A stretch of 33,774 nucleotides of DNA from a virus, in the IMG/VR virus record IMGVR_UViG_3300009130_002028, positions 1-33,774 of that record; one strand, given 5' to 3'. Below the pieces are notes generated by a model, which was given only the letters and a program-made list of their open reading frames with translations, did not search any database and was not told the DNA's origin. This document shows, one piece after another, positions 11,766 to 27,723 of the stretch (position 1 is the first letter of the stretch; every line of letters starts with the position of its first letter). Position numbers and translations under genes: made by a program.

Positions 11766-11810
11766 GTCCCGGTCTCCTGCGCTGACGACAAACAACTCAT
11801 GTCGTCTACT

Positions 11811-11844
11811 TGTAGACCTACCCGGTTGCGGTTCGAGCTGACGA
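11811..11844 (-). promoter_or_regulatory. Conserved promoter-like element, copy 1 (late operon)
   Basis: On the minus strand the site reads TCGTCA, twelve variable bases, then ACCGGGTAGGTCTACA. The same 34-bp architecture occurs at 23829-23862 and 27595-27628 and nowhere else that I can find. It lies in the 129-bp gap between the zinc-ribbon gene and the gpW-like gene, 45 bp before the GTG start, in the sense orientation. TCGTCA could serve as a -35 element and TAGGTC (18 bp away) as a -10. The core also contains interleaved inverted half-sites (GTCTAC-TT-GTAGAC and GTAG-AC-CTAC), so it may instead be an operator. Confidence 0.7.
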
Positions 11845-11894
11845 CGGAAACTGCTTCGAAACGTGAATCCATTCCGTATGCAGAACTCCGTGCG

Positions 11895-12077
11895 TCATTC
11901 GATGCTGAGTTTCTCGTGCGTTGTCACGCGGTGACCGCAGTGTCGACACTCACGTCGCCGTCGCAGGCGACCAGCGGATACGGCGCGGGTGTAGAGCACG
12001 CGGAAATGTCGGCAGCCGCAGCGAGGGCATTCGATGCCGCGTTGCGTACTCTTCGAGTCCGAGGGCGTTTCGCTCAT
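11895..12077 (-). CDS. NrdR-like zinc-ribbon protein
   Basis: The ATG at 12077 overlaps the terminase TGA (ATGA), so this 60-residue protein is cotranslated with the terminase. A longer frame running to 12632 is only the shadow of the terminase gene. The product has a four-cysteine zinc ribbon: C17-P-R-C20 and C44-R-H-C47. Between them lies RVLYTR, then basic RLRRRRE, and after them GHRVTTHEKL. This closely resembles the N-terminal zinc ribbon of NrdR (CPxC, then RRRRxC and R-F-T-T-x-E), but the ATP-cone domain is absent. It is likely a small DNA-binding regulator. Its target is unknown; the late promoter element lies immediately downstream of it. Confidence 0.82.
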   Translation of the reverse strand: MSETPSDSKSTQRGIECPRCGCRHFRVLYTRAVSAGRLRRRRECRHCGHRVTTHEKLSIE

Positions 12078-14341
12078 ATCCGTCGGCTCCGTTGCAGTTC
12101 GGACAGGCGGATGCGGCGGCGCTGCGGGACAGGTGCCGTGTCGGTGCCGAACAGGACAACTCCCTGAATTGAGGCGGCGACGGCGCTGCCAACCAGACAG
12201 TCCAGCCAGTGATTGTCGGACTGTTCGGGGCGGAGCTTCCACTCGTCGACCGTGCGACCACGGCCAGAGGTCTTCACGAAGTACTCGGCGGTGATCTGCT
12301 CGGCGAACAGCCGGTGTGTTTCGGGCTTCGAACCGAACAGCGACAGGCAGCCCCGGTCGCCCATCGACACTGCCAGCCGGGCGTGGACGAAGGACTTCCA
12401 CCAGTTGGTGTCGTAGACCACATGCCGCACAGCACGCTTGCCACGGACGTTGGGGATCCGCCAGTTGAGGCCGACGCGGTCGCCCTGTTTTCGCTTGTAC
12501 TCGGAGAAGGGAATGCTCGACGCACCGACGAAACGGCCGTGCGAGGGCATCAGAATCGTCGAGTGGCTGCTCTGCCGGCAGAATTGGTAGACGACGTCGG
12601 TCGAGTGGCCCCAGTTGGCATCGATCAGACACCGGTCGATCTTCAACGCCGCTCCGTCGTCACGTTTCCACTCCCGGCTAAGATACTGCTGCGTCAATGA
12701 TTCGAGGCCCGCATAGATTGAGCCTTCCAGCCCGCTTCCCGGTGCCGCCGTCGCGAGTGTGTGACGGGCGTCACGCAGCGTGAAGTACGTCCGCTTTTGA
12801 TCGGGGTACGAACCGTAGTCGACGATGTAGCCGGTGAAGTCGTCTTCCCACGCGCACACGCAGTAGAAGAGCAGCTTCTGCTGCACGTCGATGAACATCG
12901 TAAGGTGATTGCACGCGATCGGGATCTCTGCTCGCTGACGGTTGTTGATCTTCGCGGCGATCTCGTCGGCCGTCAGGAGATCGTCGTCGACGGTCTCTTC
13001 GGGCAGCGGTTCGTTCTGGTACTCCGCAAAAAAGGCTGCCTCGTCCTGCAGCTTGAGATTCATCGCGTGCTGGATCGCGGACAGTTCGTCGTGATTGTGC
13101 CGCTCGGGCCACGCGACCTTCGCTCCAGCATCCATTGCAGCCCGATGCTGAGCGTAGAACTCGGTCGCCGCCTTGCCGCTGTCACCATTGCGCAGGCCTT
13201 CGGCGCGGAGTTCCGCGTAACGGGTCCACAGCTTCTCGTCGGCGGGGAACGAGTAGACCATGCGGGTCCGCTCGCCGTTCCATTCAGGATGCCGATCGCG
13301 ATCGAGAATGCTGTCGGCCATGTCGCCCGGTCTGATGACCGTGCACGGCATGATGCCACTGATCTTCTTCCCCGGTCCGGCGAGACCGAGGACCGCTCCG
13401 GCCAGAATGCTCTCACGGTTCGCACATTGAGACAGCGACCGCGCGGACTCATCAGTTTGCGGGTCGTCGAGCACGACCAGTGACGGACGCACGGTCTGAC
13501 CATCCGGCCGCTTGAACTTCATCCCGCGAATGCGACCGGTGATGCCGGCGACTTTGATGATCGCTCCGCTGGCGAGCGAACCGGGCATCGTCGGCAGGAC
13601 CACTTCACGAGCCGTCCAGCCGATGTGAGTTCGTTCGCCCTGATGAAGCTGTCCGCTGCATCGGTTGGCGATGCCGTCCAGGCATTGAATCGGGAAGACC
13701 ACCTCGGGGAAGTCGGCCAGCAGCAGTTCGTTGCCATCGAGTTCTGTCTTGATGGAATCCAGCATGTCCATCGCGTGGCCTTCGTCAGACCCGATCAGGC
13801 AGACGAATTCGCGGTGACCGTTGAGCACGGCCCAGATGCAGGCGCACTCGCAGATCGTTGTCTTGCCGCTGCCGCGCGGCATCGCCATCGCGAACAGGCC
13901 GCCTTCGAGCACTGCCTCTTCGATCTTCGAAATCACTTTGAGATGGTCCGGAGACCACGCGAGGTGAAACGTTAGCGGGAAATAGGCCTCGCAGAAGAAG
14001 CAGAAGTCTCGCTCGGCCTGATGGCGTCGATCGGGATCAGCGATCGCCGGCAGTTCGCCGATGTCCCTGCCCGACTGCGCGATCGCCGCGTTGCGGGCAC
14101 GCGATCGTTCTTTGAGCGTCGCGTAGGGATCGGCATCTGATTCCGGCTTCGGCTCGTGAAAGACATCGACCAGCCAGGCGACGTAGCGCAGCAGATCGAC
14201 GTGACGTCCGTCTCCAACGCGAAAGCCTGCGCGCATGCGGTGGCGGTACAGCTGTCGCTCGCTGATGACCTCGCCCAGAGGCGTCGAGTTCAGCAGCCGG
14301 CACAGTTCGCCCGGTCGGAGTTTGCGCGGGTCAATCGCCAC
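12074..14341 (-). CDS. Terminase large subunit with N-terminal small-protein domain
   Basis: The 755-residue protein packages DNA into the prohead. Residues 1-60 form a separate domain (LLNSTPLGEVISERQLY, then DGRHVDLLRYVAWLV) related to the neighbouring small gene. The ATPase domain has a Walker A at 154-162 (MPRGSGKTT) and a Walker B at 287-295 (SLVVLDDPQ). The C-terminal nuclease domain shows acidic positions in TMFIDVQQKLLFY, RCLIDANWGHSTDVVYQF and SDNHWLDCLVGSAVAAS. Length and motifs fit the gpA/GpA-like large terminases. It starts 11 bp inside the end of the small gene and ends in an ATGA overlap with the zinc-ribbon gene. Its shadows on the opposite strand are not genes. Confidence 0.95.
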   Translation of the reverse strand: MAIDPRKLRPGELCRLLNSTPLGEVISERQLYRHRMRAGFRVGDGRHVDLLRYVAWLVDVFHEPKPESDADPYATLKERSRARNAAIAQSGRDIGELPAIADPDRRHQAERDFCFFCEAYFPLTFHLAWSPDHLKVISKIEEAVLEGGLFAMAMPRGSGKTTICECACIWAVLNGHREFVCLIGSDEGHAMDMLDSIKTELDGNELLLADFPEVVFPIQCLDGIANRCSGQLHQGERTHIGWTAREVVLPTMPGSLASGAIIKVAGITGRIRGMKFKRPDGQTVRPSLVVLDDPQTDESARSLSQCANRESILAGAVLGLAGPGKKISGIMPCTVIRPGDMADSILDRDRHPEWNGERTRMVYSFPADEKLWTRYAELRAEGLRNGDSGKAATEFYAQHRAAMDAGAKVAWPERHNHDELSAIQHAMNLKLQDEAAFFAEYQNEPLPEETVDDDLLTADEIAAKINNRQRAEIPIACNHLTMFIDVQQKLLFYCVCAWEDDFTGYIVDYGSYPDQKRTYFTLRDARHTLATAAPGSGLEGSIYAGLESLTQQYLSREWKRDDGAALKIDRCLIDANWGHSTDVVYQFCRQSSHSTILMPSHGRFVGASSIPFSEYKRKQGDRVGLNWRIPNVRGKRAVRHVVYDTNWWKSFVHARLAVSMGDRGCLSLFGSKPETHRLFAEQITAEYFVKTSGRGRTVDEWKLRPEQSDNHWLDCLVGSAVAASIQGVVLFGTDTAPVPQRRRIRLSELQRSRRI

Positions 14342-14543
14342 GTCCGAGCCCCTTCACCAGCCACGCGGCATACATCACGAGATTGATTGTCCCATCCGTG
14401 TTCGTCGGAGCGCCGGCCTCAATGTCCGCTCGCAGCATGTCCTCGCGCACGGGCTTGCCGCCGACCTTCGACAGCAGCGTCGCTGCGGCCGGGATCGCCA
14501 GGGCGGTCGGATTCAGGCTGCGGTCGTGGTCATCCGACGACAT
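14331..14543 (-). CDS. Small terminase-associated protein (candidate small subunit)
   Basis: The start is the ATG at 14543, with GAGG seven bases upstream; the codon before it is a TTG. The product is 70 residues. Residues 10-65 (LNPTALAIPAAATLLSKVGG and following, then DGTINLVMYAAWLV) align with residues 4-60 of the terminase that follows. Shared positions include P, LL, G-x-V, an AG step, DG, L, Y and AWLV. It overlaps the terminase start by 11 bp. Its place directly before the large subunit, and its small helical nature, suggest that it supplies small-terminase or DNA-recognition function. A direct assay is lacking, and no standard small-terminase motif is visible. Confidence 0.78.
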   Translation of the reverse strand: MSSDDHDRSLNPTALAIPAAATLLSKVGGKPVREDMLRADIEAGAPTNTDGTINLVMYAAWLVKGLGRGD

Positions 14544-14659
14544 CAAAGAACCTCGGAAAAGATGCAGGAATCGCTCGCGAACTCGCTGGAGTTCGTCCGC
14601 GTCTCATGGCTCCATGTGTCCCGTTGTTGAACGGACCACGAACCACGGAGACGCGAACG
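14544..14659. promoter_or_regulatory. Divergent promoter region between packaging genes and accessory cassette
   Basis: This 116-bp gap separates the leftward packaging operon from the rightward accessory genes, so it must hold promoters in both directions. I see no convincing sigma70 hexamer pair and no copy of the three-copy phage element. There is an imperfect hairpin at 14618-14636 (GT-CCGTT-GTTG-AACGG-AC with one bulged C) that could be an operator. Shine-Dalgarno sequences are present at both edges: GAGG before 14543 and GGAG before 14660. Confidence 0.45.
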
Positions 14660-14959
14660 ATGAACGCCACGCACGACATGCCCGAGATCCTCGCCACGCG
14701 GAACGAAGCGTGGGGTTTCTTCGGGACGACGCTTTCGAACACCGGCTGCAGCGACGCCGACGCTCGCGAGATCTGGGACGACGTGAGCTGCGAACTGATT
14801 CACGAATTCGGGCTGACCAGCGAGCAGGCCCGCGATTTCCTCGATAGCCGGGACGGACGCCACCTGGCCGACGCGATGACGCACGACGAATGGATCAGCG
14901 GCCCGTTGCCCGCCTGGACGCGACGCTCGATCACCCGCTTCCTCAACGCCCGCGACTAA
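14660..14959 (+). CDS. Small acidic protein, unknown function
   Basis: The ATG at 14660 follows GGAG at about eleven bases. The 99-residue protein (MNATHDMPEILATRNEAWGF) is acidic and helical, with no membrane segment. Features include FFGTTLSNTGCSDADAREIW, a DDVSCELIHEFGLTSEQARD segment and a C-terminal DEWISGPLPAWTRRSITRFL. A longer frame running back to 14387 lies antisense to the terminase and is not likely. It is the first gene of a rightward cassette. I do not recognise its family; the composition would suit a protein that binds another protein, such as an anti-host factor, but that is speculation. Confidence 0.75.
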   Translation: MNATHDMPEILATRNEAWGFFGTTLSNTGCSDADAREIWDDVSCELIHEFGLTSEQARDFLDSRDGRHLADAMTHDEWISGPLPAWTRRSITRFLNARD

Positions 14960-14971
14960 AAGGGAATCGTC

Positions 14972-15232
14972 ATGAAGAACGCGAACACAACCACCTGGCT
15001 GGTCGCGACCGTCACGCGGTACGTGCTGGTCGACGCCGAGACCGAAACGCTGGCACGTGATCGGGCCATCCCGCTGCTCGAGGACCTCTACACCGACTTC
15101 CGCGAGAAGTACGGCAACCATCCGATCGTGATTCACACGGTGCGACCCGCGACCGAGGACGAGGTCGAACTCTGGAACTGGCATCACGAGATGCTCGCCC
15201 GGGAACACCGGGCAAATACGACGGACTCCTGA
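14972..15232 (+). CDS. Small protein, unknown function
   Basis: The 86-residue product starts MKNANTTTWLVATVTRYVLV after an AAGGGA ribosome binding site, 12 bp after the previous stop. It shows an N-terminal strand pair (TTWLVATVTRYVLVDAETET), a helix LARDRAIPLLEDLYTDFREK and a strand IVIHTVRPATEDEVELWNW, which suggests a small alpha/beta fold. No catalytic motif is visible and I know no function. Its stop codon lies at the foot of the terminator hairpin at 15231, so the first two cassette genes form one unit. Confidence 0.78.
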   Translation: MKNANTTTWLVATVTRYVLVDAETETLARDRAIPLLEDLYTDFREKYGNHPIVIHTVRPATEDEVELWNWHHEMLAREHRANTTDS

Positions 15233-15264
15233 GCCGGCCATGTTGGCCGGCTCTTTCTGTTTCT
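15231..15264 (+). terminator. Intrinsic terminator after the first accessory unit
   Basis: A perfect 10-bp stem (GAGCCGGCCA with TGGCCGGCTC) and a three-base loop TGT are followed directly by TTTCTGTTTCT. The gene before it ends inside the foot of the stem. The next gene has its own ribosome binding site 30 bp later, so it either has its own promoter or depends on leaky termination. Confidence 0.88.
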
Positions 15265-15292
15265 GGACCCGCTTTACGAAGGGGATTGAAGA

Positions 15293-15661
15293 ATGGCTGC
15301 AAAGAAGACCACGACGAAGAAGGCGACCACCCGGAAGGCCACGACTCGCAAGAGCGCGACGACGAAGCCGGAGGCCTCGAAGCCGGCTGCGAAGAAGCAG
15401 CCGGTGAAAAAGGCTGACACGGCAAAGAAGAAGCTCAGCGCCCTGGACGCGGCGGCAAAGGTGCTCGGCGAGGCGACCGAACCGATGGCCTCGAAAGAGA
15501 TGATCGAGGCGATGACGACCAAAGGGTACTGGACGAGCCCCGGCGGCAAGACGCCTCACGCCACGCTCTACGCCGCGATCATTCGCGAAATCAACACGAA
15601 GGGAGCCGACGCCCGGTTCGTGAAAACCGATCGCGGCCGCTTCACCCTGAAGACCGCCTGA
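15293..15661 (+). CDS. HARE-HTH winged-helix protein with lysine-rich tail
   Basis: This 122-residue protein joins two parts. Residues 1-47 are a disordered lysine/threonine/alanine tail with repeated KKATTRKATTRK and KPAAKKQPVKK units, resembling histone H1 or bacterial histone-like tails. Residues 48-122 form a HARE-HTH (HB1/ASXL-type) winged helix: SALDAAAKVLGEATEPMASK, EMIEAMTTKGYWTSPGGKTP, HATLYAAIIREINTKG, then FVKTDRGRFTLK. HARE-HTH domains bind DNA and often accompany chromatin or restriction proteins. The combination suggests a small DNA-coating or transcription-modulating protein. GGGG-ATTGAAGA precedes the ATG. Its stop overlaps the next start as TGATG. Confidence 0.88.
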   Translation: MAAKKTTTKKATTRKATTRKSATTKPEASKPAAKKQPVKKADTAKKKLSALDAAAKVLGEATEPMASKEMIEAMTTKGYWTSPGGKTPHATLYAAIIREINTKGADARFVKTDRGRFTLKTA

Positions 15662-15858
15662 TGGAGCCATCAACCATGATCGCCGAACGACGATCCAGCG
15701 ATGTCCCGCCCGGCTGCGAATGTCCGTGCTGCGGAGAACGCGACGCGGACCGGCTGGTCTGGCAGGACGACTTTGAAACCGTCCGCTGCGTGAACTGCGG
15801 GCATCTTTACGAACCCGATGCGGAGTACGAATACGATGACGACGACAACGCAGATTGA
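15661..15858 (+). CDS. Small zinc-ribbon protein
   Basis: The ATG at 15661 overlaps the stop of the HARE-HTH gene; a second ATG at 15676 is possible. The 65-residue product has two cysteine pairs, C-E-C-P-C-C around residues 19-24 and C-V-N-C around 43-46, followed by GHLYEPDAEYEYDDDDNAD. That makes a compact zinc ribbon with a strongly acidic tail. Acidic-tailed zinc ribbons often bind nucleic-acid enzymes or RNA polymerase. Coupling to the lysine-rich HARE-HTH gene hints at a basic/acidic partner pair, which is an inference. Confidence 0.78.
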   Translation: MEPSTMIAERRSSDVPPGCECPCCGERDADRLVWQDDFETVRCVNCGHLYEPDAEYEYDDDDNAD

Positions 15859-16021
15859 AATGGCGGACGCCATTCGCGACGTGACCACCGCCATGCAGAC
15901 GGCGCTGGACGAGGGCCGGCGATCCACTCGCATCGACGCCTGGGATCTGGTCGAGGCCCTCCTGGCAATCGCCGACCGCCTCGACCCACCCGTTCCCGCC
16001 AGCGACGAGCCCGGCAACTGA
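15836..16021 (+). CDS. Small helical protein, unknown function
   Basis: I chose the ATG at 15836, which has GGAG about ten bases upstream and overlaps the acidic end of the zinc-ribbon gene. Alternatives are an ATG at 15818 and one at 15860, neither with a better site. The product has 61 residues (MTTTTQIEMADAIRDVTTAM), mostly one or two helices (IEMADAIRDVTTAMQTALDE and DAWDLVEALLAIADRL) and a disordered proline-rich end. I recognise no family. It is the last gene before two stacked hairpins, the second of which is an intrinsic terminator. Confidence 0.65.
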   Translation: MTTTTQIEMADAIRDVTTAMQTALDEGRRSTRIDAWDLVEALLAIADRLDPPVPASDEPGN

Positions 16022-16028
16022 CCGCCCG

Positions 16029-16078
16029 ACGCGCTCCGTAGCGCGTGACGCCCCACGTTCGCGACGTCGGGGCGTTTT
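16029..16078 (+). terminator. Tandem hairpins with intrinsic terminator
   Basis: The first hairpin (16029-16046) is a perfect 7-bp stem, ACGCGCT and AGCGCGT with loop CCGT. The second (16048-16075) pairs ACGCCCC-ACGT with ACGT-C-GGGGCGT around a short TCGCG loop, with a single bulged C, and runs into TTTT. It ends the rightward cassette 21 bp before the convergent stop of the DUF1937 gene. It lacks a T-run on the other strand, so it acts mainly rightward. Confidence 0.85.
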
Positions 16079-16098
16079 CTCGTTGGTCCGTAGATTGG

Positions 16099-17798: not shown

Positions 17799-18081
17799 GA
17801 TCTGACTCCGTTCAGACTTCGGACACACAAAACAAACTGTCCTCAATAGCGCCGCTGTTCCCGCGGGGATCACCTGATGAGGATCCGGAGGAAGTACCTA
17901 TACATACATAGAGAAGAGAGACTTCTTCGTAGTTATTAGTAGCCACCCTGTTCTTCTCCTCCCGTGTGTGTGAGACACACACAGGGCGCGCATAACGTCG
18001 AAGAAGTGTTTGTCGAAGACATAGGCGGTTGCGAAAAACGACGAAGAAGTCCTGTGTCACTGGAAGGGTGGATGCGAATAA
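17799..18081. promoter_or_regulatory. Non-coding region: candidate origin or operator between primase and methyltransferase
   Basis: No open reading frame here looks real. The region contains the repeat array described separately, a strong hairpin at 17961-17986 (CCC-GTGTGTGT-GAG-ACACACAC-A-GGG) and an AT-rich stretch around 17895-17912 (ATACATACATAG) that stands out against the GC-rich surroundings. It separates two leftward genes, so it must at least hold the leader of the methyltransferase gene. Iterated boxes plus an AT-rich stretch is how many phage and plasmid replication origins look, and the adjacent gene encodes a primase. Confidence 0.6.
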
Positions 18082-18094
18082 CTACGAAGAAGCC
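17920..18094. repeat. Four iteron-like boxes, three with an exact 43-bp period
   Basis: On the plus strand the box reads CGMAWAA-N3-CGAAGAA, two 7-bp half-sites spaced by ten bases, that is, one DNA turn. Copies are at 17989-18005, 18032-18048 and 18075-18091, each exactly 43 bp from the next. A fourth copy is in inverse orientation at 17923-17939. A GG-N2 stretch also tends to precede each box. The first and last copies form a perfect 16-bp inverted repeat (17922-17937 and 18077-18092), extended to 29 bp with five mismatches. The spacer sequences differ, so this is not a simple tandem duplication. The rightmost copy overlaps the primase stop codon. Confidence 0.85.
17961..17986. repeat. Hairpin (GTGTGTGT/ACACACAC)
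   Basis: An 8-bp perfect stem with loop GAG is extended by CCC and GGG with one unpaired A. It lies between the inverted box and the three direct boxes of the array. There is no T-run on either side, so it is not an intrinsic terminator. Confidence 0.75.
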
Positions 18095-20211
18095 TCCCCG
18101 GCGTGGATGGACGCGACGTACCGCGAACGCGGAGCGCCGCCGGTCTGTTCTTTCTGTTCAACGACATCGCCGCAGAGCAGCAGCGTTTCGAGAACTTCCG
18201 ATCGCTCGCGGGTCGTGAAGGCTCGCGTGCGGCTGTAAAGCTCGGAGCGAGTCACGCCGACTTCACCCGCGTCGCTTATCAGACGCAGCACCCGTTTGCG
18301 TTTGGCATCGAAAGGGTTCTCCGCGACCCACTGACTGGCGAGGTAGACGAGTCGCTCGGTGAGGTAACGGCTGAGATCGCATGCCCACACGGCATCGGCT
18401 TCGTCGATCTCAGGAGATTCGCGAGCCCGACTGCAGCACCGGATCAGAGCCAGCTTGCGGGCCTTCTCGGTCGCTCGTGTCCACAGCGTGCCAAGCGGAT
18501 CGCCTAGTTCGAGTTGCGTCTGCTCGGCAACATCGTCCAGCGCATCGAACGCGGCAGAGGCGGCTGGACTGGCTGCGATTGTTCTCGGCGACGGATTTTC
18601 GGCGGCGAGGTTTCCACCCGGCTGGTACTCAATCCACCAGTGGGCAAAGTCGACGAGGTCGTCCGGCACGAATTGAATCACTGGTCGCTGTCTCGGTGCG
18701 CGATCACTCGACGACTCGAAGATCATGACGCGGGACAGGAAACCATCGGTGACGTTCTCAGCGGTCAGACCTTCGTACAGAGACTGCGGCACGGTGGTTC
18801 CGTAGACGCAGGCGTGCGGCTGATGAATGACCTTGTTGCGACGAGCATCGGCGTAGGCGTCACCCACATAGACCGTCGCCGAACTGGTGAAGAGCTTCAT
18901 CAGGTTCGTCGCGATGTGATACAGGTGTGGCGATCGCCCAGGCTCGACGAGCGTGCGCAGCAGGCGTCCGATCTCATCGAGCTGAAAGAGGATCGCCGGC
19001 TGCTGCTCGACGGCCGTGATGAGACCGGCATGGCTCGCCAACCCTTCCGGCCCGGCCATCTCCGGCGCACCGGCGAGGAACAGGATCTCCTTGTTGACCT
19101 GCCGGGCGCGTTCCTTGCCACCACCGGACGGGCAGACGCCGAGGCAGTACACGTTGGTCCGCGTGTTGGTGTCGTCGCACACCTTGCGACCGGTCAATGT
19201 TCCCATGAGTGCGATCGCCGCTCCGAGTGCCAGCACGGGTTGCGGCCGGAATGCCGTGGCAACCATGAACGCTGCCAGGTCGCCGACGAAGCCCGGCACG
19301 CTGAGCAGTCGATTGGGAAACGGTCCGGGATCGGGTGGTCCGTCGGCACGCGGCGGCGCGTACATCTGGGCCCAGTGGTTCTCGATCCGTGCGACCGTGA
19401 TCTGGTCGGGCTGGTAGCGACCGACACTGTCGGCGATGCGCTCGACTTCGGGGGAGTCCAGTGGTGGTGAACACCGCTCGGCATTTGCCCGCTCCAGCGC
19501 GGCAAGGATTTCACTACGGGACATTCCCGCGCGGCGCATCGTGCCCGCCAGTTTCGCCAGAGTGGCGTTTCGCTGACCGGCCGGAATCGCGTTGGCACCT
19601 GGCGAACCGGACGCGACACGAGCGGCCGTGGGCGACGACGTTCGCGGACTGGTGGCACGGGCCGGCTTCGCTTTTGATCGTGGCGTCGCCAGTTCGTCGA
19701 GCTGCTCGATCAGCCACTGCGGTGACTCAGACAGTTCCGCGGGCGGGACATCGAGTTCCAGTCCATCGGCCCAGCGATACGCCTTGCCGCCTGAGAGCAT
19801 CGACGGCGGCACAACGATGTAACCGCCGTCGGCCCGCGTATCGACTTTGTCGGCCAGCCGGCCAGCCGTGTTTCTCCACAGCCGTTCGTGGGGCTGCCGG
19901 AAGATGTGCTGTCGGCCTCCATTGGCCGTATGAGAAAGCGGCGCAGCATCCAGATCGGCAAAGCGGTCTGGCTCGTCGACAAGCCAGGTGCTTCCGGCAT
20001 CGACGTCGATCACCACAAGCCCGTGGGTCGCGATGCCGATGTTCGCGTTCGGACGCTGCTGCCACCACTGCTCGATCTGAGCCGCATCGGTCGTGGCATC
20101 GCGGTTGCCGCGTTTCGTCAGCGGTGTCTTGCGTCCCGGCGCGCACGGAAACACCGGGTAGCCGAGTTCGGCATACCTCAGCGCCGCCATGCAGAGTGCA
20201 GTCCGTTGCAC
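18082..20211 (-). CDS. Prim-pol/DUF3987-like replication protein
   Basis: The 709-residue protein starts at a GTG (20211); an ATG at 20190 is an alternative. Residues 1-170 are a bifunctional primase-polymerase domain with YPVFPCAPGRKTPL, the metal-binding pair in GLVVIDVDAG (D69, D71) and GGRQHIF (H102). Residues 285-600 are a DUF3987-like helicase/ATPase. Its P-loop is GVCPSGGGKERAR, with a glutamate where serine or threonine is normal. The acidic B motif is FQLDEIGRLL, and later parts include GTTVPQSLYEGLTAENVTDG and FLSRVMIFES. It probably primes and unwinds DNA at the phage origin. A C-terminal winged helix (VTRSELYSRTRAF and following) may bind DNA; the coding end falls inside the repeat array. 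Confidence 0.9.
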   Translation of the reverse strand: MQRTALCMAALRYAELGYPVFPCAPGRKTPLTKRGNRDATTDAAQIEQWWQQRPNANIGIATHGLVVIDVDAGSTWLVDEPDRFADLDAAPLSHTANGGRQHIFRQPHERLWRNTAGRLADKVDTRADGGYIVVPPSMLSGGKAYRWADGLELDVPPAELSESPQWLIEQLDELATPRSKAKPARATSPRTSSPTAARVASGSPGANAIPAGQRNATLAKLAGTMRRAGMSRSEILAALERANAERCSPPLDSPEVERIADSVGRYQPDQITVARIENHWAQMYAPPRADGPPDPGPFPNRLLSVPGFVGDLAAFMVATAFRPQPVLALGAAIALMGTLTGRKVCDDTNTRTNVYCLGVCPSGGGKERARQVNKEILFLAGAPEMAGPEGLASHAGLITAVEQQPAILFQLDEIGRLLRTLVEPGRSPHLYHIATNLMKLFTSSATVYVGDAYADARRNKVIHQPHACVYGTTVPQSLYEGLTAENVTDGFLSRVMIFESSSDRAPRQRPVIQFVPDDLVDFAHWWIEYQPGGNLAAENPSPRTIAASPAASAAFDALDDVAEQTQLELGDPLGTLWTRATEKARKLALIRCCSRARESPEIDEADAVWACDLSRYLTERLVYLASQWVAENPFDAKRKRVLRLISDAGEVGVTRSELYSRTRAFTTRERSEVLETLLLCGDVVEQKEQTGGAPRSRYVASIHAGEASS

Positions 20212-20213
20212 GT

Positions 20214-21896
20214 TCAGAAAGGCACCTCGTCGTCATCAAAGCTCGGAACACAGAAGACGGCTTCGGGCACCTCGCCGAGTTCGTAGCCGATGATCCGGTC
20301 GTACTTCTCACCAGCGACGTTCCGGACGGTGATCGCTTCAGTCGGGGCAACTCCGCCAGCATTGGCAATGTCGACGGCTTCCTGTGCCGTGGACGGCATG
20401 GCATCAGGCGAACGGCGTTTCCACCACTGCTCGGCCTTCCATCGCGCGTAGCCGGTGTGTTCGAAGCAGATCCATTCCGACTGCCAGTGATCGAGCCCCA
20501 GTCGGTACTCCACCCGCATGGTTCGTGGAGCGCCCTCGTCGGCATCACGTTTGAAATGGACGCTGTAACGGATGTCCTGCACGTCGTAGCGGACGTCGGT
20601 TGTTTCTCCGGACAGCACGCCCGCCGAACTGGCTTTCGCTTCGTGCTTCTTCCGGTCGGCTGGAGGAAACTCGTATTCGCAGTCCGGGCAGATGCTGTAT
20701 CCCGCTGCCACCAGGGATCGGCACTCCGGGCACATCTTCACTGGCGCGGAACCGTCGCTGTCCGTCGGTCGGGCTTCCACGACGATCTGGTCGATCGGCC
20801 CATGACGTTCGATGTTCCCGCCGAAGTCGAGAATCAGGCAGTCCTGCTTTCCGGGATACAATCGGAACCCGCGACCGCACATCTGGACGAGCAGACCGGG
20901 CGACATGGTCGGTCGAAGCAGTACGACGCAGTCGATGCAGGGTGAATCGAAACCGATCGTCAGCAGATCGGAGTTCGCCAGGAACTTCAGCGGCCTGCGA
21001 TCGAAGAGATCCCCCGATTCGTCACGGCGAAACCGGGCCAGTGTCTCGTCGCGCTCGCGAGCTGGCGTTTTGCCACAGACGAACCCGCATTCGACACCCC
21101 GACTTTCCAGCACACTCTGTACGTGCTTCCCGTGATGAACGCCCGCCGTGAAGATCAGCACGGACTGGCGATCGGCCGTCAGTTGCAGGATCTCATCGCA
21201 GGCTGCATCGACGAGTCCGTCATCATCCATCAGCCGTTCGACTTCCTCGGCGACGAACTCGCCGGCGCGTATGTGGAGTCCGGTCGTGTCGACCTGCGCC
21301 GTACCGGCTTTCGAGATCAGCGGACTGAGATACTCATCACGGATCAGTTCCCGGATGCCGACTTCGTAGCAGACGGCGTTCAGGAAATGCTCGGTAGAGC
21401 AGATCGGGCCGGAGTCCAGCCGGTACGGCGTCGCCGTCAGGCCGATCGTGCGCAGATGCGGATTGACGATGGATGCCTCGGTCAGGAACTGGCGATACAT
21501 GCCTTCGCCGTCTCTCGGAATCAGATGGCACTCATCGACGAGCACAAGGTCGAACGGATCGAACTCGCACGCCCGCTTGCAGACGCTCTGAATCCCGGCC
21601 ACGAGCACTGGTGTGTTGGTATCGCGGCGTTTCAGTCCCGCCGAGTACAGCCCCACCTGCAGATCAGGACACAGCCGGCGAATCTTGTCGGCGTTCTGCT
21701 CGAGCAGTTCGCGGCGATGGGCGAGGATCAGAACGCGACCGGCCCACTGTTGAACAGCGTCCGTCGCGATCTGCGCGATGCACCAGCTCTTGCCCGAACC
21801 GGTCGGCAGGACGACGACCGGGTTGTCATCGCGCGTCCGCAGGTGCTGGTACACCGCATCGACGGCTTCGCGCTGGTAGGGACGCAGAGCGGACAT
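20214..21896 (-). CDS. SF2 DEAD/DEAH-box helicase with zinc finger
   Basis: The 560-residue protein has LRPYQREAV (Q-motif) at the start, Walker A LPTGSGKS at 30-37, DECH at 121-124 and TATP at 154-157. Further motifs are VLIFTAGV (motif IV region), LLTIGFDSPCID (motif V) and LVQMCGRGFRLYPGK (motif VI). A four-cysteine zinc ribbon (C-P-E-C and C-P-D-C, about 388-406) follows, then a distinct C-terminal domain. This architecture is known from phage recombination/replication helicases in the UvsW/RecG-like area. The gene sits between RusA and the primase and shares their operon. The start ATG at 21896 is one base from the RusA stop. Confidence 0.92.
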   Translation of the reverse strand: MSALRPYQREAVDAVYQHLRTRDDNPVVVLPTGSGKSWCIAQIATDAVQQWAGRVLILAHRRELLEQNADKIRRLCPDLQVGLYSAGLKRRDTNTPVLVAGIQSVCKRACEFDPFDLVLVDECHLIPRDGEGMYRQFLTEASIVNPHLRTIGLTATPYRLDSGPICSTEHFLNAVCYEVGIRELIRDEYLSPLISKAGTAQVDTTGLHIRAGEFVAEEVERLMDDDGLVDAACDEILQLTADRQSVLIFTAGVHHGKHVQSVLESRGVECGFVCGKTPARERDETLARFRRDESGDLFDRRPLKFLANSDLLTIGFDSPCIDCVVLLRPTMSPGLLVQMCGRGFRLYPGKQDCLILDFGGNIERHGPIDQIVVEARPTDSDGSAPVKMCPECRSLVAAGYSICPDCEYEFPPADRKKHEAKASSAGVLSGETTDVRYDVQDIRYSVHFKRDADEGAPRTMRVEYRLGLDHWQSEWICFEHTGYARWKAEQWWKRRSPDAMPSTAQEAVDIANAGGVAPTEAITVRNVAGEKYDRIIGYELGEVPEAVFCVPSFDDDEVPF

Positions 21897-22241
21897 TCAC
21901 ACCTCAATGATCTGCACGAGCGTTTGACCGCCCTGAACGGGGTCGGCCTTCTTGATTCGCAGGTCGACGATCTGGCTGTCGTCGATGTAGACGCCACCGT
22001 GCTGAAGAGCATCGAGCAGGGCCTTGGCGATGTTGTCGATATCGCGTCGCCGACGGTCAGGTGGCGACGCTACGATCAGCACTTCGAGTTCTTCGGTCAG
22101 AGTCAGAATGGGCATGTCCGCGAGGATCGCCAGCACGGTTTCCCGAAACCGACGACCCTCGCGACTGATCAACGTGCGTGGTCCGACCCGTCGCCAGTAG
22201 TGATTGATCGACGGCGGCCACGGCAGTTCGAGTTCGATCAT
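21897..22241 (-). CDS. rusA: RusA-type Holliday junction resolvase
   Basis: The ATG at 22241 overlaps the stop of the DUF669 gene (ATGA) and gives 114 residues; the frame from 22256 is longer but starts inside that gene. The RusA fold is visible: MIELELPWPPSINHYWRR at the start, then R-R-D67-I-D69-N (metal site), and GGVYIDDSQIVDLRIKK with D88. These correspond to D70, D72 and D91 of E. coli RusA, so the catalytic triad is intact. It resolves Holliday junctions during phage recombination, in a block with a Sak4-type ATPase and an SF2 helicase. Confidence 0.93.
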   Translation of the reverse strand: MIELELPWPPSINHYWRRVGPRTLISREGRRFRETVLAILADMPILTLTEELEVLIVASPPDRRRRDIDNIAKALLDALQHGGVYIDDSQIVDLRIKKADPVQGGQTLVQIIEV

Positions 22242-22702
22242 GAGGCACGGCTCCACGGAGGCGAATTCGTGGACGTCGCGGCCTCAGCGGCAGCGACCGG
22301 AGCCGACTCTTTCTTTGAGTAGCCTTTGATCTCGTTCGTGATCTCACCTGTGTCATCGCGCCGCTTGCAACGCACATGGATCACCAGCGGCAAATTGTGC
22401 AGCTCCATCGAGTCCTTCGGAGCCATGACGCCGACCGCACGACAGATCGCCGACAGTTCCGCTTTCGCAATCGCAACAGCGGTCGCGTTCGGGTTGTCGA
22501 GATTCAGCCGCGCCCACAGGAAGCGGTTGGCGTGCGGACCGTCAATGACATGAAACGTGAGCTGCAGATACTGCCCGGTGCCGGACTTCGTCTCCTTGAA
22601 CTCCGACTCGGTGATCACGGCCGCATACTTGCCGGCGGGGATCGGTTCGAAATCGGTCGTTGGTTCCACTTCGTTCGCGTCGAATCCTGTGAGGTTAGCC
22701 AT
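22238..22702 (-). CDS. DUF669 family protein (candidate ssDNA-binding)
   Basis: The 154-residue product starts MANLTGFDANEVEPTTDFEP at the ATG at 22702, which follows AGGAG and overlaps the end of the ATPase gene by 8 bp. Landmarks of DUF669 are PIPAGKYAAVITESEFKETK, GTGQYLQLTFHVIDGPHANR, FLWARLNLDNPNATAVAIAK and AELSAICRAVGV. The final segment (GYSKKESAPVAAAEAATSTN) is a disordered tail. DUF669 genes sit beside phage recombinases and are thought to act as an SSB-like partner. The longer frame running to 22963 is an overlap artefact. Confidence 0.9.
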   Translation of the reverse strand: MANLTGFDANEVEPTTDFEPIPAGKYAAVITESEFKETKSGTGQYLQLTFHVIDGPHANRFLWARLNLDNPNATAVAIAKAELSAICRAVGVMAPKDSMELHNLPLVIHVRCKRRDDTGEITNEIKGYSKKESAPVAAAEAATSTNSPPWSRAS

Positions 22703-23480
22703 TGGTTTCTCCTGTCGGCTGGTTGGTTGTCGAAAGTGCGTTGATGAATGCGGTCCACGAGAGATCGATTTCCTCGTCAATGCCGTAACGGTTCTTCGCG
22801 ATGCATGACGGACCGCCGACGCAGCGAAGAATGCGTTCGCCACCGGCGCTGCCGATCTCTTTGGCGATCGATCGTTTGCGGCCGAAGCCGGCGTCTTCGG
22901 TCTGCGTGCGGAACTTCCGCGTCGCGAACAGCACGGCGTCCGACCACTCATTGACGAGAGCACCGGCGTGCTTGTGAAGCCGTGGTGAGTAGCGGTCGTA
23001 CGCGGCGGTTTCCGGGTCTTCGAACTTCTCGACCTTCGCGTGAGCGATGCAGATCACGACCATGCCACGATCGGTCCGCAGCCCGTTCAGAGCGTCGAGC
23101 ACTTTTCGCCAGAGCGACACGGCATGCGTGTAGCCTTTGGCATAGCCGCCATCGACTTTCTCGATCGACGCGACGTTGTACTGCCGGCACAACTCATCCC
23201 AGATCAGTCGCTCCAGCCAATCCAATGAATCAATCACAACCGACTGATAGTCGTGCTGCTCCATCGCGAGGTCAGCCAGTGCTGACTCGACGTCTTCGAA
23301 GGTCGTGGCGAGCGGAAAGCGATCGCAGTCGATCTCCGCAAGGCCATCTTCAGTCTGAATGAAGACGGGTTTCGGAGCCTGTGCCGCAAACGTGCTCTTC
23401 CCGATGCCCTCCGTGCCGTACACCACCAGTCGTGGCGGCATGGGCTGACGGCCCTTCTGAATCTGCTTCATGAGTGACAT
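22695..23480 (-). CDS. Sak4-type RecA-like ATPase
   Basis: The 261-residue protein has Walker A GTEGIGKST (22-30) and Walker B SVVIDSLDW (80-88). A GMVVICIAHAKVEKFEDPET segment and a later ALVNEWSDAVLFATRKF are also typical. Sak4-family proteins are single-domain RecA relatives that promote single-strand annealing recombination with a phage SSB partner. Here the likely partner is the adjacent DUF669 product. It overlaps the preceding small gene by 13 bp. The order small protein, Sak4, DUF669, RusA, helicase and primase forms one recombination/replication operon downstream of copy 2 of the promoter-like element. Confidence 0.92.
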   Translation of the reverse strand: MSLMKQIQKGRQPMPPRLVVYGTEGIGKSTFAAQAPKPVFIQTEDGLAEIDCDRFPLATTFEDVESALADLAMEQHDYQSVVIDSLDWLERLIWDELCRQYNVASIEKVDGGYAKGYTHAVSLWRKVLDALNGLRTDRGMVVICIAHAKVEKFEDPETAAYDRYSPRLHKHAGALVNEWSDAVLFATRKFRTQTEDAGFGRKRSIAKEIGSAGGERILRCVGGPSCIAKNRYGIDEEIDLSWTAFINALSTTNQPTGETNG

Positions 23481-23791
23481 GCAGTTGCAGTCCTTTCGTT
23501 GAGTGGATGACGTGGGTTGGGTTGGTTGTTGCGTTCAATTCGAAAGGCGTCTTCGCCGAACTCACGACGAAGAAAGCCGAGGAACACCTTGCACAGGTCG
23601 CGACCGGCATCGGTGTCGGCCGCGACGACGACGGTGCGAGCGTCCGTGTCGAGAAAATGCCCCGCGTCCATGCGGACGCGTTCACTGCCATGCAGGCTTT
23701 CCGTAGCCCAGATCGCGAGCAGCAGGCTCGCTTCCACATCCTCGAAGGGGACTTCGTCTGCGAAGACGAAGCGTCGGGCAGTGCTGTGCAT
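23468..23791 (-). CDS. Small protein, first gene of the recombination operon
   Basis: I chose the ATG at 23791 (MHSTARRFVFADEVPFEDVE), giving 107 residues. A longer frame to 23932 would run through the promoter-like element and into the sigma gene. The protein has an N-terminal strand-helix region (PFEDVEASLLLAIWATESLH) and a central strand ARTVVVAADTDAGRDLCKVF that leads into a helix, with a disordered C-terminus. I know no family. Position ahead of the Sak4 gene in an early operon suggests a DNA-metabolism accessory or anti-host role, which is inference. Confidence 0.75.
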   Translation of the reverse strand: MHSTARRFVFADEVPFEDVEASLLLAIWATESLHGSERVRMDAGHFLDTDARTVVVAADTDAGRDLCKVFLGFLRREFGEDAFRIERNNQPNPRHPLNERTATACHS

Positions 23792-23828
23792 CCAGGTGTT
23801 CCTCGGCGGGATTTGTTTCGTCTCTACC

Positions 23829-23862
23829 TGTAGACCTACCCGGTTCGGACGCGAGGTGACGA
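23829..23862 (-). promoter_or_regulatory. Conserved promoter-like element, copy 2 (recombination operon)
   Basis: On the minus strand this reads TCGTCA, twelve bases, then ACCGGGTAGGTCTACA. It lies in the 79-bp gap between the sigma gene's stop and the first gene of the recombination operon, 37 bp before that start. It carries the same overlapping inverted half-sites (CTAC-CT-GTAG) as copy 1. Being placed between the sigma gene and its neighbour, it separates sigma transcription from the operon behind it. Confidence 0.7.
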
Positions 23863-23870
23863 AGTGATTT

Positions 23871-24479
23871 TCAAAGCCAGTCCCGGAGCGCTGCGTCCTC
23901 GAAGCGCTGGCGCAATCGTCGAACAGCGTCATTGAGCGTTGTTCGTGGGACTCCCAGTTCGCGTGCCGCCTGGGAGATCGACGTTTCGCTCAATCGCCTC
24001 GCCAGGTCCCGATCGTCGCCGTTGAGCGTTTCGAGCAGTGACGTGACATCAACGGCCAGCGATTCCTGTTCGAGTTGATCACGCGGTGCCTGTCCGCGGT
24101 GGCGGTTCTTTTCCGTCGTGTCGAGACAATCGCCGAGTTCAACAGGTGCCTCGCCCGGTACTGGCACTTTGCAATGCAGCGAATCCAGTCGATCACTGTC
24201 GCGTTTGAGAGCGCGCTGGTCGCGCAGCAGGTTGGCTGCGCAGCGATTGACGACCGTCGTCACGAAGACATGCCAGTGGGCACGCTTCGGATCGAAGGAC
24301 TCCGCATGGCGAAGCAGCTTGAGCCAGAGTTCCTGTTCGATGTCGTCCCGGTCGTGCGACTGGAACCCGGCTCGCCCGACCATGCGCCGGGCGGCGCGAC
24401 GAACGACCGATTTTGAGAAGTTGTCGGGGATGCGTGGCTGGCTGATTGCGTCGGTGTTTTTTTCAGTGGTCTGCAACAT
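23871..24479 (-). CDS. Phage-encoded RNA polymerase sigma factor
   Basis: The 202-residue protein has sigma70-family regions 2 and 4 only, in the ECF/sigma70-like style. Region 2 (about 25-95) contains DRDDIEQELWLKLLRHAESF, DPKRAHWHVFVTTVVNRCAA and NLLRDQRA, matching the helices that contact the -10 element. Region 4 (about 145-198) has a helix-turn-helix in ISQAARELGVPRTTLNDAVR. GGAG lies seven bases before the ATG at 24479. A sigma factor in a prophage probably redirects polymerase to phage promoters; the three-copy element is the obvious candidate target. Upstream there is an 8-bp perfect hairpin (24508-24528), possibly an operator. A non-sigma DNA-binding role is less likely because both regions are present. 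Confidence 0.88.
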   Translation of the reverse strand: MLQTTEKNTDAISQPRIPDNFSKSVVRRAARRMVGRAGFQSHDRDDIEQELWLKLLRHAESFDPKRAHWHVFVTTVVNRCAANLLRDQRALKRDSDRLDSLHCKVPVPGEAPVELGDCLDTTEKNRHRGQAPRDQLEQESLAVDVTSLLETLNGDDRDLARRLSETSISQAARELGVPRTTLNDAVRRLRQRFEDAALRDWL

Positions 24480-24566
24480 TTCGTGACTCCGTCGGGGTGG
24501 AACTCCCGTCGTGCCCGATGCACGACGACAGCCCCCGGCGGGCTGGCACGAAACGCGGAAAGAAAA
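24480..24566 (-). promoter_or_regulatory. Sigma gene leader with operator-like dyad
   Basis: The 87-bp leader lies between the upstream terminator and the sigma gene. It contains a perfect inverted repeat at 24508-24528, CGTCGTGC-CCGAT-GCACGACG, and a smaller one near 24529 (AGCCC-CCGGC-GGGCT). I find no clear -35/-10 pair, and no copy of the three-copy element. The dyad could bind a regulator that controls sigma production. Confidence 0.55.
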
Positions 24567-24599
24567 TCAGCCGGGTGACGCAACGCGTGACCCGGCTGA
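24561..24599 (-). terminator. Intrinsic terminator of the lexA operon
   Basis: On the minus strand a 10-bp stem TCAGCCGGGT/ACCCGGCTGA encloses a second 4-bp stem (ACGC/GCGT) with loop GTT, and is followed by TTTTCTTTCC. It lies 66 bp after the last gene of the lexA operon and before the sigma gene leader, so it isolates sigma expression from LexA-controlled transcription. Confidence 0.88.
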
Positions 24600-24664
24600 G
24601 ACTTTCGTCTTGAGATTTCACGTCTTGCAGTTGCGCGAAAACGCGGCCACTGCAAGTGCAACGC

Positions 24665-25612
24665 TCAGTCCTCCACTTCCACCGGCGGTCGAATGGACCC
24701 GCTCCACGACACGAGGGCATTGAGATCGGCAGCCGTTTCCCAGAGCACGCGAAGAACGTCCGCGCTGTCGTCCTTCAGGCAACGGCTGACATCGGATTCG
24801 CTGAGTCCGGTCATGCGGGCCAGCTCGGCCTGCGTCGGTCGCGGAAGCAGACGCGGCGAACCAGTTCGTTCCCGCGTATCGGCTGCGTGATTCCGCGCGG
24901 CATTGAGATGCCGCTGCATTTCGTGAATCAGCTTTTCGATCTTCGCGGCTCGGCCACCGCGTTTCTTCGGAGCAGTCCGACGAGATCGCTGGTCTGCAGA
25001 CGCGTCATCAAACCGAGCAGCGACCTGATCAGTATCGAACACCAGGCCATCGCCGGTTTCGAGAATGATGCTTTCCAGCGCGAGGACGACTTTCGATCCA
25101 GCAAATGGCCAGCGGCGAACCGATGCTTCGGTCGGAACGACGACCATCGCTGCCGGGCGGCGATCCATCTCATTGAAAATGTTGGCCTCGTGTCCCCGCC
25201 AGTTGCGAGCGAACACGGTCTCTCGCGACCTGCCATTCCACGTGGCTGTTCCCCATCGCCAGAGTCGGCCGGTGACAAGTTCAGTCGCTGGACCGCGAAG
25301 TTTCATTGAGCTGCTGAGAAGTGCGAGCAGTACGGGAACGTCGATGTCCCATCGCTGGAGACTCGATCCGTCGATTCTCGTTGGCCCACACTCGGGACAC
25401 ACCAGCATCAGTGACTTCGCGAGCGGCGCAACGCGTCCGACTCCGGCACATTGCGGACACGGCAGTGATCGCGCCGGCTGCGCTGGAGTGAGAACTCGCG
25501 TTCCGTTCATCCATGCTGGTGACGGAGACAGCCAGCGTTCGACGTCAGACGACGAGAGCCGGGCTGGTTCCATCTCCAGCGTCTGCAGCACTCTCGACAG
25601 ACTGCTCGTCAC
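24665..25612 (-). CDS. Zinc-ribbon/HTH protein of the lexA operon
   Basis: The 315-residue product starts at a GTG (25612) preceded by GGGGGA six bases upstream, overlapping the upstream gene by 68 bp. An ATG at 25573 would also be possible. Residues about 52-76 form a zinc ribbon (C-P-Q-C and C-P-E-C, in LPCPQCAGVGR and LVCPECGPTR). Residues about 255-290 form a helix-turn-helix (PTQAELARMTGLSESDVSRC). A basic stretch (RRTAPKKRGGRAAKIEKLIH) sits between. The overall design is of a DNA-binding regulator or replication accessory. No enzyme motif is visible. Its cotranscription with LexA suggests induction by DNA damage. Confidence 0.78.
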   Translation of the reverse strand: MTSSLSRVLQTLEMEPARLSSSDVERWLSPSPAWMNGTRVLTPAQPARSLPCPQCAGVGRVAPLAKSLMLVCPECGPTRIDGSSLQRWDIDVPVLLALLSSSMKLRGPATELVTGRLWRWGTATWNGRSRETVFARNWRGHEANIFNEMDRRPAAMVVVPTEASVRRWPFAGSKVVLALESIILETGDGLVFDTDQVAARFDDASADQRSRRTAPKKRGGRAAKIEKLIHEMQRHLNAARNHAADTRERTGSPRLLPRPTQAELARMTGLSESDVSRCLKDDSADVLRVLWETAADLNALVSWSGSIRPPVEVED

Positions 25613-26768
25613 GCTCGATCCCCCATCGCTTGAGGTACTTGTGCACGATCTCCACTCGTTCCGGCCGTTCGCTGCGGACGGTGCATGAGTTCGGCCAGGT
25701 CACGTTGAAGGTCACCGTGCCGCCGCGCGTCCGTCCGCGAGGGGCAAACTGAAAACAGAATGTGACCTGCGTCACATGCACGGCATGCATCGGACATCCC
25801 GTATCGTCCAGACACTCGTTGATCATGTGGTAAACGTCGTCAGGCGACCGGTCGGGATCGGCTTCCAGCGTGATCCGGCGATGGCTGTTTCGGAACGACA
25901 GCCGCATGGCCCGGATCCGGACTTCGACCGCATCTTCGGGATCGGTGGCCAGCGAGAAGTGCGGGTCCTTGAGCACATCGAGGTCATACACGGTCTCGGG
26001 CTTCCACGGAGCGAGTTCCACACCAAGCACCGTGCGCCCGAAAACGGCCTCAATGCGGTCGCGAACTTTCGGTGGCACGCGAGCCAGCAGCTCAAGAGTG
26101 CCATCGACCGGCGAGAAGGCAAAGATGATCTGAAACGTCTTCCGCATCATGCGTGGTCGCAACCGCCCGGCTGAATCGTGAATGGTGACGTTCTGCACGA
26201 AATCATCCGGCCACGCGAAGAAGTACTCGACGCCCTTTCGACTGAGCGTCTCGACCGTGCAGTGCCGTCCCCGTCCCTGTTCCCACACCAGCAGGTCAGA
26301 CAGCTCTCGCGAGAGACGCTCGATGGCTTCCGGAGTCGTGTCAGGATTCCTGCAGGGCAGGTCTGTCCGTTTTCGCCAGCGACTCAGCGATTGGACTTCG
26401 TGAATCACCAGTGCCGACTGCACAAGTTCCGGCTCATTCAACCACGCCCACATCGCCTTGTGATACCAGCCGCCGTTGTCCGGGAGACGGCTTGCGAAAT
26501 CGAAATCACCAGCGTCCGCTGCCGCTTCGACCAGAGCATTGAATCCGGTCTCGCGTGACAGCTCGCAGACATCATGCAGGTTCGATTCGACCCGGTCGAA
26601 GTCATCATCAGAGAGATCATCGAGAGCCTGCTGAATGGGACCGATCTCCCGCTTCTGCAGGCCATCCCAGTCGATGGGCAGTGAGTCCAGATTCATCCGG
26701 ACGAAGAATTCCCGCAGCAGCGGGTTGGGAACCATGCGCAGCACGGTTGGCAGTGAAAATCGAGTCAT
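25545..26768 (-). CDS. Hypothetical protein of the lexA operon (407 residues)
   Basis: The ATG at 26768 overlaps the lexA stop (ATGA), so this gene is coupled to lexA. The protein begins MTRFSLPTVLRMVPNPLLRE and is mixed alpha/beta. Visible segments are an acidic helical N-half (QALDDLSDDDFDRVESNLHD and SRETGFNALVEAAADAGDFD), WYHKAMWAWLNEPELV, and a C-terminal half with VTFCFQFAPRGRTRGG and a final KYLKRWGIERDEQSVESAAD. It contains no P-loop, no zinc cluster and no transmembrane segment. I do not recognise a family. Because it is a large protein controlled by an SOS-type repressor, it is a good candidate for a novel damage-inducible or anti-host factor. Confidence 0.8.
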   Translation of the reverse strand: MTRFSLPTVLRMVPNPLLREFFVRMNLDSLPIDWDGLQKREIGPIQQALDDLSDDDFDRVESNLHDVCELSRETGFNALVEAAADAGDFDFASRLPDNGGWYHKAMWAWLNEPELVQSALVIHEVQSLSRWRKRTDLPCRNPDTTPEAIERLSRELSDLLVWEQGRGRHCTVETLSRKGVEYFFAWPDDFVQNVTIHDSAGRLRPRMMRKTFQIIFAFSPVDGTLELLARVPPKVRDRIEAVFGRTVLGVELAPWKPETVYDLDVLKDPHFSLATDPEDAVEVRIRAMRLSFRNSHRRITLEADPDRSPDDVYHMINECLDDTGCPMHAVHVTQVTFCFQFAPRGRTRGGTVTFNVTWPNSCTVRSERPERVEIVHKYLKRWGIERDEQSVESAADAGDGTSPALVV

Positions 26769-27427
26769 TCGTTCTGTTCCTGCTGAATTCGGCGGACCGC
26801 CACGACTTTGCCCAGCACGCGAAGGTCTGCGTCTGGAGCCACCGGTATCGGTCGATACCGGGAGTTCTCGGGACGCAGTTCAATCTCGTGCCCCTGTATG
26901 GACAGTCGTTTGACGGTCGCTTCGCCATCCAGCAGTGCGACCACGATGTCACCGTTCTCGGCCACCGGCTGTTGACGGACGACGACCAGGTCTCCGGTCT
27001 GCATGCCGGCATCCTGCATGCTGTCACCAGAAACCCTCAGAGCGAAGTGCCGGCCCGAACGCACCTGAGCCGCGTCGACCAGCACTTCCCCTTCGACGTT
27101 TTCTTCCGCCAGCAGCGGCGTGCCCGCAACGACCGTGCCCACGATCGGCACCGAAACGAGTCCGGCCGGATCGGGAGGCACCTGCCTGACCACAGTCAGG
27201 CTGCGGGCCTTGCGCGGTTCCCGATGCAGATAACCTTTGCGCACGAGCTGCGTGATCTGCTCATGCACACTGGCGGGAGCGATTCCCAGCGCGTCCGCCA
27301 GTTCCTGCATCGTCGGCGGAACATGATTACGTGCGAGCCATTCCTGCACCGCCGCCAGCGTCTTCTGCTGGGGTTCGGTCAATCCGGAAATGGGGCGTCG
27401 ACCACGACGCACACGCTGTCCCGCCAC
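26765..27427 (-). CDS. lexA: LexA-like repressor (S24 peptidase)
   Basis: The 220-residue protein starts at a GTG (27427), with AGGA seven bases upstream. Residues 1-75 form the winged-helix DNA-binding domain (LTEPQQKTLAAVQEWLARNH, MQELADALGIAPASVHEQIT and RKGYLHRE). Residues 90-220 form the S24 autoprotease. The cleavage site is A101-G102 (VGTVVAGTPL), the nucleophile S136 lies in SGDSM and K173 in ATVKRL. It self-cleaves on a RecA filament and should act as the prophage's SOS-responsive repressor. It lies just before two regulated proteins and is the most likely lysogeny switch. Whether it is host or prophage in origin is not certain, but it is embedded in the phage block. Confidence 0.95.
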   Translation of the reverse strand: MAGQRVRRGRRPISGLTEPQQKTLAAVQEWLARNHVPPTMQELADALGIAPASVHEQITQLVRKGYLHREPRKARSLTVVRQVPPDPAGLVSVPIVGTVVAGTPLLAEENVEGEVLVDAAQVRSGRHFALRVSGDSMQDAGMQTGDLVVVRQQPVAENGDIVVALLDGEATVKRLSIQGHEIELRPENSRYRPIPVAPDADLRVLGKVVAVRRIQQEQNE

Positions 27428-27474
27428 GGAACTGTCCTTTCATCGCCTTTTTCTGCTGTCCAATGATCTGCGGC

Positions 27475-27502
27475 ATTTTAGCCCGAATATCTGTCAGGTC
27501 AA
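27475..27502 (-). promoter_or_regulatory. Sigma70-type promoter of lexA
   Basis: On the minus strand TTGACC (27497-27502) and TAAAAT (27475-27480) are separated by 16 bp, a near-consensus sigma70 pair. Transcription would start near 27467, about 40 bp upstream of the GTG start. A TCAATTGA palindrome overlaps the -35 element at 27499-27506 and may be part of an operator. Confidence 0.75.
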
Positions 27503-27594
27503 TTGAACGAGCATTTTCCGACGCCGCATCGTCGGGCGCTGGAGAGAACAACCACCGGCGATTGAACGAACCGGTCGCTTTCGCGAGATCGATT

Positions 27595-27628
27595 TCGTCA
27601 GTTCGAACTCCGACCGGGTAGGTCTACA
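27595..27628 (+). promoter_or_regulatory. Conserved promoter-like element, copy 3 (recombinase cassette)
   Basis: On the plus strand it reads TCGTCA, twelve bases (containing the palindrome GTTCGAAC), then ACCGGGTAGGTCTACA. It is divergent from the lexA promoter and 95 bp before the first rightward start. The second half-site after the core is less conserved here (GACAG instead of GTAGA) than in copies 1 and 2. Confidence 0.7.
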
Positions 27629-27723
27629 GACAGGGCGAACGAATAACCGCTAAGACCGCATTGGCCGCCGCATCGCTGAACTGCGATCGCCCTGCGCGCT
27701 GCCTGACTCATGGCAGGATGCTC

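Follow-up and report, generated by a model that had tools for sequence, protein, structure and literature searches.

Covariation of a phage-encoded ECF-type sigma factor with a candidate set of private promoters in viruses of planctomycete bacteria

The question raised by the locus

A virus of planctomycete bacteria (IMG/VR virus record IMGVR_UViG_3300009130_002028) carries three exact copies of a 34-bp bipartite sequence, each located in a gap ahead of a different transcription unit. This raises the question of what the sequence is and which protein, if any, reads it. The window, i.e. the whole stretch of DNA analysed, comprises the 33,774 nucleotides of this record and contains no host sequence. 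Its gene content includes a tail tape measure, decoration, capsid/protease, portal, terminase, ParB/methyltransferase, primase-polymerase, helicase, Sak4-like annealing protein, sigma factor, LexA-like S24 repressor, DUF2924, large serine recombinase and an McrBC pair. The last of these, an McrBC-type restriction pair located behind the recombinase cassette (30551-33774, +), may represent cargo or a superinfection defence. The sequence-only reading had described the three copies as a candidate phage-specific promoter or operator regulon. As detailed below, the observation is confirmed, and the promoter interpretation is much better supported than the operator one. The copies are most likely the start signals of the phage's own ECF-type sigma factor, a protein that the sequence-only reading did not name as the one that reads the element. 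The features relevant to this question are the following:

11807..11844 (-), copy 1, predicted promoter of the late structural operon: -35 TCGTCA 11844-11839, -10 TAGGTC 11820-11815, predicted start A at 11807
23825..23862 (-), copy 2, predicted promoter of the recombination/replication operon: -35 TCGTCA 23862-23857, -10 TAGGTC 23838-23833, predicted start A at 23825
27595..27632 (+), copy 3, predicted promoter of the DUF2924/serine recombinase cassette: -35 TCGTCA 27595-27600, -10 TAGGTC 27619-27624, predicted start A at 27632
23871..24479 (-), ECF-type sigma factor of 202 aa, proposed reader of the three predicted promoters
11571..11765 (-), gpW-like small gene, the first gene after copy 1
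8163..11643 (-), late structural genes behind copy 1: portal (10108-11643) and capsid/protease (8163-10202)
18082..23791 (-), genes behind copy 2: 107-aa gene (23468-23791), Sak4-like protein (22695-23480), helicase (20214-21896) and primase-polymerase (18082-20211)
27724..30042 (+), genes behind copy 3: small ORF (27724-27906), DUF2924 (27953-28453) and large serine recombinase (28450-30042)
24665..27427 (-), early module upstream of sigma, without the element: LexA-like S24 repressor (26765-27427) and two proteins of unknown function, of 407 aa (25545-26768) and 315 aa (24665-25612)

The gpW-like name of the small gene between terminase and portal is given here from its place and size. A small zinc-ribbon protein, NrdR-like by eye, lies between terminase and copy 1 (11895-12077, -) and recurs at that place in many relatives.

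Three exact copies with the geometry of a promoter

The pattern TCGTCA-N12-ACCGGGTAGGTCTACA occurs exactly three times in the window, at 11811-11844 (-), 23829-23862 (-) and 27595-27628 (+), whereas no match appears in 100 dinucleotide shuffles. The 16-mer core has no further copy even when three mismatches are allowed, so none stands before lexA, sigma or terminase, and a relaxed bipartite pattern adds only two three-mismatch places, near the chance level. Copy 2 starts 8 nt after the stop of the sigma gene. The limits proposed by the sequence-only reading are slightly too short, since conservation runs on to ...ACA-RRTAGR, about 39 bp in all.

The conserved columns read as TCGTCA (-35), an 18-nt spacer, TAGGTC (-10, preceded by GG), 7 nt and then an invariant A-G, the A being the predicted +1. 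From this position it is 42 nt to the GTG of the gpW-like gene, 34 nt to the ATG of the 107-aa gene and 92 nt to the small ORF before DUF2924. This is the layout of a sigma-70-family promoter, although the start sites are predictions.

Conservation in relatives

A pattern scan of viral contigs finds the core in seven stretches. Of these, one 71-kb contig, from a near relative, has all three copies at the same three places. The core match in L005/L008 (G and L numbers are working handles for the records compared) lacks the -35 part and is taken as a coincidence in coding sequence. Searches with the sigma and the terminase yield 12 and 80 loci, respectively. About 25 of these carry CGTCA (or CGACA)-N12-NCCGGGTAGGTCWACARRTAGR or a close form, right after the sigma stop or after the terminase, with the same N12 distance in all, while the gap sequence around it has diverged. 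Distant relatives, which are prophages of Planctomycetota, keep the layout CGTCA-N12-ACCGGGTAGGTCTACA-RRTAG. Although PF04542 alone suggested that some element-bearing records lack sigma, a profile built from these sigmas detects it in G008, G026, G032 and G038 too, and the element-bearing records still without it are fragments under 30 kb. A palindrome, GCTA-N4-TAGC, stands upstream of the pre-gpW promoter in many relatives (L132:6677, L148:3280, L251:10017, L255:13688 and others), mostly once per record, but is absent from the window.

Different elements at the same positions

Many relatives that carry a sigma gene lack the sequence found in the window. If the phage sigma reads the element, such phages are expected to carry another element at the same places, shared within each phage, and most of them do. 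For 33 phages with both sigma and gpW-like genes, the region after the sigma stop and the region before gpW were compared in all combinations, with the same maximisation in every pair. Within-phage matches average 31.3 of 44, cross matches between phages with sigmas under 60% identical average 24.0, and none of 5000 permutations reaches the observed mean. After the removal of similar sigmas, 29 phages still give 0 of 20000. Six of the 33 phages show no convincing pair, and in some the sigma stop overlaps the next gene or the element lies partly inside the sigma gene. Examples of the elements include GCGTCAATTC..CCAACTGGAAAGCTCTTCCTGTAG, CGCGGACA..ACGGCATAGGTAAC, TTTCGCCAGTTTGC..GAGTAGTTCAAG and GCGTAGTTT..CTCCGGCAAGGGTC. 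About ten classes can be counted, although the number depends on where lines are drawn.

A model made only from the first two sites of each phage, when scanned over the record of that phage, finds a further copy 249-345 nt before DUF2924 or the recombinase in seven phages (G001, G008, G016, G026, G032, G037 and the window), covering four element classes. The triad of positions noticed in the sequence-only reading is therefore conserved while the sequence is not.

Covariation with the sigma factor

Element similarity between phages was compared with protein similarity, gene by gene, in 27 phages. Sigma gives a rho of 0.60, in contrast to portal (-0.03), gpW (0.13), Sak4 (0.06), capsid (0.12), helicase (0.11) and terminase (0.26). 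Partial correlations leave sigma at about 0.5-0.6 for most genes, and the others fall to near zero given sigma. After dereplication (23 phages), sigma keeps a rho of 0.50. Two genes upstream of sigma in the same module, which encode the 315-aa and 407-aa proteins, behave alike (0.67 and 0.54; 14-15 phages), are linked to sigma (0.72 and 0.64) and diverge as fast as it does.

The 202-aa protein is an ECF-type sigma factor by profile, with sigma region 2 and region 4 and no region 3. It matches PF04542 over the cut-off (E 7e-10) and TIGR02937 with 60 bits (cut-off 42.9), and the latter model is matched by 26 of 26 members. The predicted fold (mean pLDDT 82.9) is a two-domain model with an HTH, and ECF/sigma chains are among the best PDB matches, at low TM-scores that are ascribed to the flexible linker between the two domains. 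Wolbachia phage WO encodes a distant relative of this sigma (about 25% identity), annotated as hypothetical protein (MN180251.1 26899-27288, -, and three further WO records).

Within the sigma alignment, columns were ranked by their association with the -35 class (CGTC against GACA) and the -10 class (GTC against GTAAC). For the -35, the leading residues are 182, 178, 144, 180 and 181, four of which are at the start of the region 4.2 recognition helix. For the -10 they are 71, 28, 21 and 75, of which 71 and 75 are in region 2.3-2.4, although this signal is weaker. Class labels were assigned by eye in this ranking, and shared ancestry inflates the residue statistics. G013, G038 and L192 combine a CGTC-type -35 with a GTAAC-type -10. 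Across 55 non-redundant sigmas, helices of the PR[TS] type have CGTCA behind the gene in 13 of 19 cases and SRR-type helices in 0 of 16 (p=2e-5), a figure likewise inflated by shared ancestry, while the 30 additional genome loci alone give 3 of 5 against 0 of 6 (p=0.06).

Taken together, the explanation held with high confidence is that the three copies are promoters for the phage's own sigma, whose gene is in an early module that lacks the element and sits behind a LexA-like repressor. When sigma is made, which is inferred to occur on induction, it would take host RNA polymerase to TCGTCA-N18-TAGGTC-N7-A(+1)G at three places and so turn on the late structural operon, the recombination/replication operon and the DUF2924/serine recombinase cassette together, with region 4.2 reading the -35 and region 2.3-2.4 the -10. 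In the absence of transcription or binding data, the binding, start sites, timing and induction are inferred, and the proposal of the sequence-only reading that a shared control of these blocks would be a complete switch for lytic development likewise remains an inference. In related planctomycete phages the sigma diverges fast and its presumed promoters change with it, at the same positions.

ALTERNATIVES

Other readings of the element appear unlikely, although to different degrees. The one with most support is that of an activator site bound by another protein of the early module, above all the 315-aa protein encoded just upstream of sigma, alone or together with sigma. This protein has cysteine pairs and an HTH-like C-terminus by eye, and in the phages that have it, its similarity follows element similarity (rho 0.67, n=15). 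Its partial correlation given sigma (0.41) even exceeds that of sigma given it (0.26). However, it has no detectable homologue in 11 of 27 phages with element pairs, whereas sigma is in all 27, and covariation is strong without it. Its linkage to sigma makes its correlation expected, and it does not explain the -35/-10 geometry or the region-resolved residue pattern.

An operator bound by the LexA-like S24 protein or another repressor, which would keep the lytic operons off, is very unlikely. A LexA-like gene lies in the window and copy 3 stands in the gap before it, but LexA-like homologues were found in only 6 of 33 relatives, the element is not a clean palindrome, and the fixed N12 plus 18-nt spacer and the conserved start-like A-G fit a promoter better. 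Also very unlikely is an RNA leader element, antitermination or riboswitch-like, in which TCGTC and GACGA arms would form a hairpin. Copies 1 and 2 do carry GTCGTC..GACGAC and TTCGTC..GACGAA arms, but the window copies fold no better than shuffles (z -0.07 to -0.35), no pair has changes on both sides, pair 15-53 is broken in 8 of 17 sequences, and there is no Rfam match. An attachment or crossover site of the serine recombinase, although not tested directly, is argued against by the three dispersed copies and by classes that change with sigma. None of the activator, operator and RNA leader readings explains the joint change of three dispersed sites with sigma as well as promoter recognition does.

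Relation to known phage sigma factors

Phage sigmas with private late promoters are already known. Salmonella phage 7-11 encodes SaPh711_gp47, a sigma similar to sigma-24-type factors, whose late promoters share positions but not sequences with those of phiEco32 (PMC8948821). 7-11 is a lytic phage, and its sigma and that of phiEco32 are held to be independently acquired, whereas here homologous sigmas of one family change together with the predicted promoters, and a recombinase cassette is in the set. The phiEco32 sigma, gp36, redirects host RNA polymerase to a few private, well conserved promoters, but these are single-element promoters, and gp36 lacks region 4 homology and works with gp79 (PMC8948821, PMC4331800). 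In the present case a -35 and a -10 are both conserved and region 4.2 is intact. What appears to be new is a family of temperate planctomycete phages in which a homologous ECF-type sigma and its presumed promoters turn over together through about ten classes. No description of planctomycete phage sigma regulons was found in the literature searched, from which most subscription journals were missing. The finding fits the prediction of Lavysh et al. that further phage sigma/promoter pairs would be found (PMC8948821). It also provides a testable regulatory system spread over Planctomycetota, whose phages have hardly been studied, and a natural experiment on how a transcription factor and its scattered sites change specificity together.

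Hosts and coexisting prophages

Terminase relatives in genomes come mostly from Planctomycetota, and the sigma family occurs in 30 of 294 sampled genomes of the phylum. In 15 host genomes the window-type element gives 0-3 hits each, with only the best 150 candidates per genome scored, and in Rhodopirellula rubra all three lie in one prophage. Copies in host genomes are thus few, in agreement with the sequence-only reading, which would not have accommodated numerous host copies unlinked to the phage. In R. rubra CECT 8075, four related prophages (L309-L316) each have their own sigma and their own element, with further copies in the same prophage, and the third also has a stretch like the second's class at C3:438897.

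A more tentative possibility is that the sigma/promoter pairs act as an insulation system in hosts that carry several related prophages, with sigma and all of its promoters turning over together so that each prophage fires only its own lytic operons. This would resemble heteroimmunity of lambdoid phages, in which a fast-diverging repressor and the operators of the immunity region probably change together, but with a sigma and promoters dispersed over the genome. Such a system, in which functional orthogonality is inferred, would amount to a natural set of about ten mutually orthogonal ECF sigma-promoter pairs with a readable region 4.2 code for the -35, and could supply orthogonal sigma-promoter parts.

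Possible intermediates of a promoter switch are seen in L255 (G010) and L165 (G013), where two promoter-like elements of different classes, a GGACA/CGACA..GGCATATGTAAG type and a CCGACA..CCGGGTAGGTC type, stand in tandem in the gap between terminase and gpW. In G010 the palindrome before them is doubled too.
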